From Rhodothermales bacterium (GTDB lineage: Bacteria > Bacteroidota > Rhodothermia > Rhodothermales > JABDKH01): DNA of 37,453 nt. How positions within the stretch are numbered: position 1 is the stretch's first letter; each line of letters begins with the position of its first letter. The position numbers and the translations under genes are program-made. The notes under the pieces are model-generated. The model saw nothing but the letters and a program-made list of their open reading frames with translations. It did not search any database and was not told where the DNA came from. Where the stretch lies: assembly GCA_013002345.1 (NCBI GenBank), contig JABDKH010000008.1, positions 1 to 37,453 of the forward strand. Reading direction: 5' to 3'. This document shows positions 2,218 through 34,264 of this stretch, piece by piece.

Positions 2218-2231
2218 TTCAACGGATATTA
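2218..2231 (+). repeat. Left 14-bp direct repeat (candidate attL)
   Basis: TTCAACGGATATTA is identical to 3903-3916. It lies about 110 bases upstream of the nuoI start and at the left edge of the AT-rich block. A chance 14-bp match within about 2 kb is uncommon (roughly one in a hundred for random sequence), but the pair was found by looking, so the att-site reading is tentative. Confidence 0.45.
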
Positions 2232-2411
2232 CGTATTCGATAACATCAGACAGTCTAGCTCGCTGTTGGCCAAAGCGATATGATATTTATAGAAAGGATA
2301 ATTGTGTGTCAAAAATCGAAAATCGATCTGTAATGTGACATTACTTGCAACACGATGACACATGATCTTCCTAGTACATTGGTCAACTGATATGTAATCG
2401 GAGGAGGTGTT

Positions 2412-2528
2412 ATGAACAGAACAAATGCTAGTATTTACGACAGGAATGGAACGTGGTATATCAGCTACTACGATCAGGATAGAAATCCCAAACGACTGAC
2501 CTACAGACAAGATATCACGTGCCAGTGA
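2412..2528 (+). pseudogene. Truncated tyrosine recombinase: N-terminal arm-binding fragment (38 aa)
   Basis: A 38-codon frame starts at an ATG 3 bases after a near-perfect Shine-Dalgarno (GGAGGAGGT, 2400-2408) and ends at TGA 2526-2528. Its core, SIYDRNGTWYISYYDQDRNPKR, split as SIYDRNGTWYISYYD and QDRNPKR, is what the beginning of Bacteroidota/Rhodothermota phage-type integrases looks like (the arm-type DNA-binding domain: SIY-x-RNG-x-WYISYYD-x-x-x-x-PKR). The core-binding and catalytic domains, with their R...HxxR...Y residues, are absent: the following bases give only a short unrelated frame ending near 2611. I read it as the leftover of an integrase after deletion. An alternative is a real mini-protein, because the ribosome site is so well preserved. 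Confidence 0.6.
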
Positions 2529-2620
2529 CGAGGAGGTTTTGATCAGTGGGTGCGCGTGCACAGAAGTACTAAGGAACTTCAAACCAGACATGACTCAAAT
2601 TGCCTTTCGGTGAGGCTGCT

Positions 2621-3667
2621 ATGCTGGGACATACCTTTTGGACTGAACTAAGGACCTATTTGTACCTGGGTATAAAGTTCGGAATATCACTGGCGCTGAT
2701 TGGTGCTGCGGCGCACATGTTGTGGGGCACTTCGGAAACAGTCCTCTACACAATGTGGACTGGTTTCTTGATCGGACTTCTCGTGGGATCTGCAGAAATC
2801 GCCTTCTCCCACCCGCTCGCCGGCCGTTTTCCTTATTCGATCGTCCTTCTGGTAAGAACGACCTGTTATTTCGCCGTCAGCCTCGTAGGTATTTACGGAG
2901 TCCTCCTTCTCTATCTGAACAAGATCGGAATGACTTCGATGGCACTTCGCGACCCGCTGGTTTTCGCCGACATAAGTACGAAATACTTCCTGACGAACGT
3001 CAATGTGCTCTACATCCTGTCCCTTACGCTGGCAACGACAGTCGTCTGGCAACTCAAGTCATTCTTCGGAAAAGGTGTGCTCTTCAATTATCTAACTGGC
3101 AGATATCACAAACCAAGAATCGAGGAGCGCATCTTCATGTTTTTGGACTTGAATGATGCGACCACGTTGGCGGAGCAGCTCGGTTCAAGACGATTCAGCT
3201 CCTTGCTGGGAGACTTCTTCAAGGATATCGATGCTGCGATCACGCGATCAAGGGGGCAGGTTTTTCAGTACGTTGGTGATGAAGTTGTGGTTGTGTGGAA
3301 ACCACAGTACGGTCTCATGAACAGCAATTGTGTGAATGCATTCTTCATGGCAGAGACAATGGTGGAGCGTCGAAAGGGCTACTATCTCACCAAATACAAT
3401 AGCGTCCCATCATTCAAGGCTTCCCTGCACCTGGGAGAAGTAACGATCAGCGAGGTCGGTATCTCAAAAAGGGAGATCGCGTACCACGGCGATACGATTA
3501 ATACGGCCTCCCGGATATGTAGTGCAGCCCACGTTCTTGGAAAGCGTCTGCTATTGTCCCGAGCGGTGCGAGACCAGATATCTCAAAACGGAGATATCTA
3601 CTTTGATGACTTAGGAGAACACGAGGTCAAAGGGAAATACGATAGAATACATCTGTACTCCGTGTAG
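2621..3667 (+). CDS. Membrane-anchored class III adenylate/guanylate cyclase
   Basis: A 348-residue protein, predicted to make a cyclic nucleotide from ATP or GTP at the inner membrane. Residues about 12-145 form four hydrophobic segments (near 13-34, 43-62, 72-98 and 126-144), followed by a class III catalytic domain. Metal-binding aspartates are D176 (FLDLND) and D220 (YVGDE). K266 (FKASLHLGE) sits where the base-binding lysine is expected, and N294 and R298 in GDTINTASR supply the transition-state Asn/Arg pair. The residue that normally fixes the base (Asp or Thr three before GDT) appears to be Ala, so the substrate is open. I chose ATG 2621 because a GGTGAGG lies just upstream; an in-frame ATG at 2600 has no such site. 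Composition is more AT-rich than its neighbours and its strand is opposite. Confidence 0.87.
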   Translation: MLGHTFWTELRTYLYLGIKFGISLALIGAAAHMLWGTSETVLYTMWTGFLIGLLVGSAEIAFSHPLAGRFPYSIVLLVRTTCYFAVSLVGIYGVLLLYLNKIGMTSMALRDPLVFADISTKYFLTNVNVLYILSLTLATTVVWQLKSFFGKGVLFNYLTGRYHKPRIEERIFMFLDLNDATTLAEQLGSRRFSSLLGDFFKDIDAAITRSRGQVFQYVGDEVVVVWKPQYGLMNSNCVNAFFMAETMVERRKGYYLTKYNSVPSFKASLHLGEVTISEVGISKREIAYHGDTINTASRICSAAHVLGKRLLLSRAVRDQISQNGDIYFDDLGEHEVKGKYDRIHLYSV

Positions 3668-3935
3668 TCGGACTGGAATTGCTGCCCACGGGTTTTGACA
3701 TTCGAAGCTTTGAATGAAATTCCAGCCGGGCCCAGGTCAAATGTGCAATCCTTGCATCATCCCTTGAGATCTTGTTGCACGTCAGATAGATCTGGACGAG
3801 ATTCAGAGATTGCGATTAGCGCGTGGCAGTTGGATCGCTTTCTGAAGGGACCGTCACACAAGAATCAACGTTGACTTTGTCTTTCTGGACGGGTGCAACA
3901 TCTTCAACGGATATTAAAGGTGCCGGACGCCCGCC
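3668..3935. other. Intergenic stretch between cyclase and der, with no credible gene
   Basis: The stretch separates two convergent genes. A short plus-strand frame begins near 3823 but has no family likeness and runs into der, so I do not call it. The only structured item is the right copy of the 14-bp direct repeat at 3903-3916. No hairpin followed by a T-run is visible for either gene. Confidence 0.5.
3903..3916 (+). repeat. Right 14-bp direct repeat (candidate attR)
   Basis: A second perfect copy of TTCAACGGATATTA, 20 bases beyond the der stop codon. Flanking bases on either side do not match those of the left copy, so the identity is limited to 14 bases. This is the pattern expected of a site-specific integration core or a target-site duplication. 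Confidence 0.45.
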
Positions 3936-33915: not shown

Positions 33916-33952
33916 GCCTGCACCCGCTCTCTGACCTTGTGCCCGGCCCTTG
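33916..33952 (+). repeat. 37-bp direct repeat, copy 1
   Basis: Identical to 34127-34163. It begins GCCTGCACCCGCTCTCTGAC and ends in the 13-bp tandem units. It lies 39 bases past the stop codon of the secreted peptidase-like gene. Confidence 0.8.
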
Positions 33953-33962
33953 CGCCCGGCCC
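33937..33962 (+). repeat. Two 13-bp tandem units
   Basis: TTGTGCCCGGCCC and TTGCGCCCGGCCC in direct tandem. The related cluster at 34148-34186 has three units, so copy number differs between the two sites, as expected of slippage-prone repeats. Confidence 0.75.
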
Positions 33963-33966
33963 TTGC

Positions 33967-34006
33967 GAATGCGAGGGAATGCGAGGGAATGCGAGGGAAT
34001 GCGCGG
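33967..34006 (+). repeat. Four 10-bp tandem units GAATGCGAGG
   Basis: Three exact copies and a fourth with A to C (GAATGCGCGG). A single further GAATGCGAGG follows the second 13-bp cluster near 34191, so the two arrays share one ancestral order (13-bp units then 10-bp units). Confidence 0.8.
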
Positions 34007-34044
34007 GATCGGGGATGCATTGGAGCGATGACAGCCGCGACGTC

Positions 34045-34065
34045 ATCCCCGACTTGATCGGGGAT
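34045..34065. repeat. REP-like palindrome
   Basis: ATCCCCGA and TCGGGGAT form a perfect 8-bp stem with loop CTTGA, preceded by CGTC. This resembles the GTCATCCCCG...CGGGGAT palindromes scattered between genes in many bacteria. It could act as a transcription end or RNA-stability element for the upstream gene. Confidence 0.6.
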
Positions 34066-34126
34066 CCATTGGAGTTACCGCCGTTGTCGGCTGGGTCCTC
34101 GCTTGCGCAAGGATGACGTGTGACCT

Positions 34127-34163
34127 GCCTGCACCCGCTCTCTGACCTTGTGCCCGGCCCTTG
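34127..34163 (+). repeat. 37-bp direct repeat, copy 2
   Basis: An exact second copy of 33916-33952, continuing into three 13-bp units (34148-34186) and then GGAATGCGAGGG. The spacing between copies is 211 bases. Confidence 0.8.
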
Positions 34164-34264
34164 TGCCCGGCCCTTGCGCCCGGCCCTTGGGAATGCGAGG
34201 GTACGCGGAGGATCGGGGATCCGTGAGAGACTGTGACGTATCTTTGATCAGTCCCACGACAGGT

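Follow-up and report, generated by a model that had tools for sequence, protein, structure and literature searches.

A probable remnant of an integrase-type island with an intact membrane cyclase between nuoI and der

Introduction

Between nuoI and der of a 4.1-Mb draft genome lies a stretch of about 1.7 kb whose sole substantial gene encodes a membrane cyclase, and the locus raises the question of how this DNA came to be there and whether the cyclase arrived as the cargo of a mobile element. The window, i.e., the whole stretch of DNA that was analyzed, is one whole contig of 37,453 bp. An earlier note had read the stretch as a small element that inserted between nuoI and der, lost most of its recombinase and left a signalling cyclase behind as minimal mobile cargo. 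The present analysis upheld the insertion, the integrase start inside the left repeat and the disappearance of the remainder of that gene; the cyclase as minimal cargo was not supported. We read the stretch, with a probability of roughly 0.68, as the remnant of a dead integrase-type island with a horizontally acquired, intact membrane cyclase. The features are collected in Table 1.

Table 1. Features between the two repeat copies, and the copies themselves, in window positions
Feature	Position	Strand	Basis or remark
Left repeat copy, putative attL core	2218–2231	.	Exact 14-mer match
A+T-rich leader, left repeat to integrase start, 180 bp	2232–2411	.	
N-terminal remnant of a tyrosine integrase, 38 codons	2412–2525	+	Profile E 3.9e-7, six-frame window search
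Junction, integrase remnant to cyclase	2526–2620	.	No integrase sequence in any frame
Intact class III nucleotidyl cyclase, 348 aa	2621–3664	+	PF00211 E 2.2e-12, alignment, hydropathy, tree
Gene-free stretch, cyclase to right repeat, 235 bp	3668–3902	.	No recognizable gene
Right repeat copy, putative attR core	3903–3916	.	19 bp beyond the der stop codon

The direct repeat

The perfect 14-bp direct repeat claimed for both edges of the block was recovered: TTCAACGGATATTA is present at 2218–2231 and 3903–3916 with 0 mismatches between the copies. These were the only two copies in the 4.1-Mb draft genome, both at the island edges, with 0 on the opposite strand of the genome and 0 genome-wide for a reversed control sequence. 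The element thus has att-like direct repeats at its two ends that form a unique pair, and the frequent occurrence of the 14-mer elsewhere, which the earlier note had named as evidence against its reading, was not seen. When the 1825-bp nuoI-der gap was simulated with a first-order Markov model, an exact repeat of at least 14 anywhere in it arose in 18 of 3000 simulations (~0.6%), and 0 of 20000 had a 14-mer common to the leftmost 130 bp and the rightmost 40 bp. About 15 further exact 14-mer repeats occur by chance in the 37,453-bp window, mostly unlinked or far apart, so the repeat alone is insufficient for the claim and other evidence is needed. Elsewhere in the window, at 33935–34189, there are short G+C-rich tandem repeats with units of 13 and 10 bp, in two related blocks.

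The 14-mer was also sought, with up to one mismatch allowed, in the cyclase and integrase neighborhoods (loci L084–L159), where it had 0 matches. A 16-mer containing the repeat had single matches in 18 viral contigs; two of the 18 also hold an integrase, but the match neither covers the N-terminal domain nor lies beside the 16-mer site. A transposon with terminal inverted repeats was considered and discarded, since neither inspection of the repeat ends nor the repeat search revealed any. The site has no tRNA, intact or degenerate, and an Rfam search gave nothing above threshold.

Composition, gene direction and the gap in relatives

The block differs in composition from its surroundings, and its gene direction is reversed, both as the earlier note had it: 17 of 60 positions are G or C at 2281–2340, G+C of 2232–3902 is 0.476 versus 0.580, and the sliding window of 1671 bp with the lowest G+C of the contig (0.473) falls within 2232–3902. 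By part, G+C is 0.422 in the leader (2232–2620), 0.493 in the cyclase and 0.494 in the DNA after it. The cyclase is on the + strand and flanking nuoI and der are both on the - strand; no gene other than the cyclase and the integrase remnant was recognized between the repeats. The leader at 2232–2411 would be the expected place for attachment or arm sites and the integrase promoter.

Five relatives, from the same family or order, have nuoI and der as like-oriented neighbors separated by 180 bp (G001), 262 bp (G002), 78 bp (G006), ~200 bp (G009) and ~300 bp (G013), and neither the cyclase nor the 14-mer is present in any of these gaps. The gaps being short and cyclase-free, ~1.7 kb was gained in the window genome, which together with the unique repeat agrees with an element inserted between the two genes. 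The closest relatives compared belong to other genera and their gap sequences are too diverged for alignment; flank DNA searched against 30 relatives gave only chance-level matches. A cyclase beside nuoI or der was found in no relative searched, so the counterexample that the earlier note had asked for, a relative with the cyclase at the same place and no repeat, did not turn up. An assembly artefact is unlikely because both flanking genes are also neighbors in relatives. Three other relatives have different, unrelated genes in the gap (3.7 kb in G004, locus L043; 4.4 kb in G008, locus L045; 1.7 kb in G025, locus L048), and the gap therefore tolerates insertions or gene gain.

The integrase remnant

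The open reading frame at 2412–2525 is preceded by GGAGGAGG, carries the N-terminal sequence MNRTNASIYDRNGTWYISYYDQDRNPKRLTY and has its TGA stop at the end of this range or directly after it. Its 38 residues matched nothing in Pfam, PHROGs or NCBIfam. Searched against 30 genomes, they gave top matches that were individually weak (E 0.01–0.07) but fell at the N-terminal ends of full-length integrases belonging to a single family. Of 1137 six-frame segments from the window, a profile of N-termini of this family picked out the remnant as the sole significant match, at E 3.9e-7 against 0.045 for the runner-up; this profile is order-specific and a few of its alignment rows are not genuine N-termini, with the window match still far above the next. 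The profile of the full-length integrase matched at E 5e-6, with the alignment placed right where the integrase begins. No further integrase part was found in any frame of the window, and the remaining ~330 codons are missing. The claim that the block holds the start of an integrase and has lost most of the recombinase is thereby sustained: the recombinase gene survives as an N-terminal remnant only, the catalytic domain is gone and the element is not an active member of its class.

Against phage records the fragment had seven matches (E 4–7), four of them from Helicobacter, of which three are annotated as integrase at the matched place and the fourth as "bacteriophage-related integrase"; against plasmid records it had 0. 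The window genome gave no match at E 1e-20 to the integrase family of the remnant, and no intact copy of this family turned up in that genome. The only piece of the family found in it is a frameshifted C-terminal half on another contig (C58, 7769–8490, locus L106), which ends ~110 bp from a tRNA-Lys-like gene and is probably a second decayed island. The same genome has a pair of integrases of a different type that closely resemble each other (L108 490–1617 on contig C116 and L109 6726–7853 on contig C44), one of which is broken by a stop or frameshift.

Geometry of the island ends

Five islands of the same order that have a full-length integrase and clear terminal repeats were used for comparison. 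Their integrases read inward from starts that lie 104, 131, 142, 165 and 219 bp in from the left repeat; the window remnant starts 180 bp inside the left repeat in the same inward direction, with end position and orientation as in the relatives. This agreement, which was beyond the reach of the earlier note, is the strongest single support for taking the 14-mers as copies of an attachment site.

It also bears on whether the 14-bp repeat could be accidental, the cyclase a lineage-specific gain in a variable gap and the integrase fragment unrelated debris. The unrelated genes in the gaps of G004, G025 and G008 would fit such a history, as would the ~0.6% of simulated gaps that contain a 14-mer repeat, but placement at the edges was never reproduced in the 20000 simulations, and the position and direction of the integrase relative to the left repeat match the islands of relatives. 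We consider an accidental repeat quite improbable.

On the island reading, a small integrative island would have been inserted by a tyrosine integrase through site-specific recombination at the 14-bp sequence just downstream of der, and the insertion would have duplicated the 14-bp core at both ends. The integrase gene lay 180 bp inside the left end and read inward, as comparison with its relatives shows. A later deletion would have removed the ~330 codons that the truncated gene lacks, and perhaps other cargo, bringing the first 38 integrase codons up against the cyclase gene, and the island remnant (2232–3916) can no longer excise itself. Being a remnant, the element may once have been larger. 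We count as weak points of this reading the 14-bp repeat, the non-tRNA target, the unalignable gaps of relatives from other genera, the possibly separate arrival of the cyclase and its long, unsupported branch in the tree.

The cyclase gene

The cyclase has its stop codon at 3665–3667 and an alternative TTG start at 2600. Hydropathy predicts about four membrane helices followed by the catalytic domain. As in class III cyclases, both metal-binding Asp motifs (FLDLND and YVGDE) and the Asn/Arg pair (NTASR) are present. The positions usually taken by the adenine-selecting Lys and Asp are Gln and Ala; in the aligned cyclase family Gln is typical at the Lys position, and a small or hydrophobic residue stands at the Asp position. 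The mycobacterial adenylyl cyclase Rv0386 has a Gln/Asn pair, so the Gln/Ala substitution is compatible with a cAMP product. The protein is probably still made and, going by its family, would convert a nucleotide triphosphate, most likely ATP, to a cyclic mononucleotide, a reaction that the membrane domain would influence.

The cyclase family is widespread, with matches in 23 of 60 genomes searched and three other close members in the window genome. In the tree these three copies cluster, at high support, with members of their own taxonomic family, and the window cyclase stands alone on a long unsupported branch, with no orthologue in the taxonomic family. The missing orthologue is what would be expected of a foreign gene; the long branch is hard to place.

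Whether the cyclase was island cargo

Integrases were sought near other cyclases of the family with four integrase types as queries and were found in 0 of 25 neighborhoods, some of them on short contigs. Conversely, a cyclase of the window's family was present in 0 of 20 stretches with a full integrase. These counts, and the fact that the element is a remnant, give no support to a signalling cyclase as minimal mobile cargo, or to the past existence of a mobile element with a cyclase alone. Were such a cyclase carried regularly, mobile islands would be linked to host second-messenger signalling; the survey argues against this.

The cargo of two full-integrase islands includes Thoeris-type TIR proteins, a SIR2-STALD protein, a type I restriction subunit and an AAA/DUF4435 ATPase. 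The tRNA-Cys island of ~18 kb at L148 (G047, contig C1) has two Thoeris-like TIR proteins, a SIR2-STALD protein and a type I restriction R subunit. The integrase family thus carries mixed, partly defence-type cargo, and the window cyclase is a single observation.

The same counts would suit two separate events, in which an integrase island decayed to a scar and the cyclase, never its cargo, arrived by ordinary recombination, and the higher G+C of the cyclase (0.493) than of the leader (0.422) points the same way. However, the cyclase lies wholly inside the repeats, 95 bp past the integrase remnant, the DNA after it matches it in G+C (0.494) and a single event is simpler; we hold separate arrival to be unlikely. 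Under the preferred reading, in which the cyclase would have come with the island, the locus is a genomic scar of an ordinary kind, in which the gene that survived is somewhat unusual. It offers a small, readable case of an island worn down to a scar in which a single gene is still intact, here a membrane cyclase with no orthologue in its taxonomic family, and of a 38-codon remnant that becomes assignable once a profile and the island geometry of relatives are considered jointly.

Defence readings

The cyclase might be a defence gene on a defence island that, in the manner of Pycsar, produces a cyclic pyrimidine or another signal upon phage infection. This reading concerns the function of the cyclase and may hold together with the island remnant. 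PADLOC PycC models match the catalytic domain (best E 3.4e-10), but PycC is itself a class III cyclase and a moderate match is expected for any member of the class. Islands with related integrases do carry the TIR, SIR2, restriction and ATPase genes named above, although this cyclase family is common and located away from integrases. Pycsar would also call for an adjacent receptor, with a cyclic-nucleotide-binding domain and a transmembrane or TIR effector; none lies beside the cyclase, whose neighbors are nuoI and der. The pocket residues of PycC are R142/Q144 in clade E and K104/F109 in clade D (PMC11224242). In a comparison by offset from the catalytic Asp, covering clades D and E only, the window cyclase has Gln, Val and Val at the R142/Q144 or K104/F109 places, and the base-pocket residues of these clades are unmatched save for a Phe that is also present in ordinary cyclases. 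We give a Pycsar-like function hardly any credence.

Very improbable, too, is that the cyclase is the cargo of a mobile defence-type island in the form of a one-gene membrane sensor that raises a cyclic nucleotide alarm read by host receptors. If so, mobile elements of the order would spread signalling cyclases that plug into the cyclic-nucleotide network of the host.

Comparison with known systems

With PycC the window cyclase has in common the class III catalytic domain and the metal-binding Asp residues, whereas it is fused to membrane helices, has no receptor nearby and lacks the clade D/E pyrimidine-pocket residues. Class III membrane cyclases with a short membrane domain, which occur in Bacteroidota, in the window's order and on Rhizobiales plasmids, share its domain order, metal Asp motifs and Asn/Arg pair; the window protein is ~30–42% identical to its nearest relatives, with no orthologue found, and has Gln and Ala at the base-recognition positions.

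The tRNA-targeting islands of the same order (for example L140, L144, L148, L149 and L155) differ from the window element in length (3.5–18 kb versus 1.7 kb), in their integrases (full-length versus 38 codons), in their terminal repeats (37–75 bp versus 14 bp) and in their sites. Their repeats lie at tRNA genes or parts of them, a target that is usual for this integrase family and not required of integrative islands generally, whereas the window site is intergenic and has no tRNA. They are like the window element in the N-terminus of the integrase, in an inward-reading integrase just inside the left repeat and in direct repeats at both ends.
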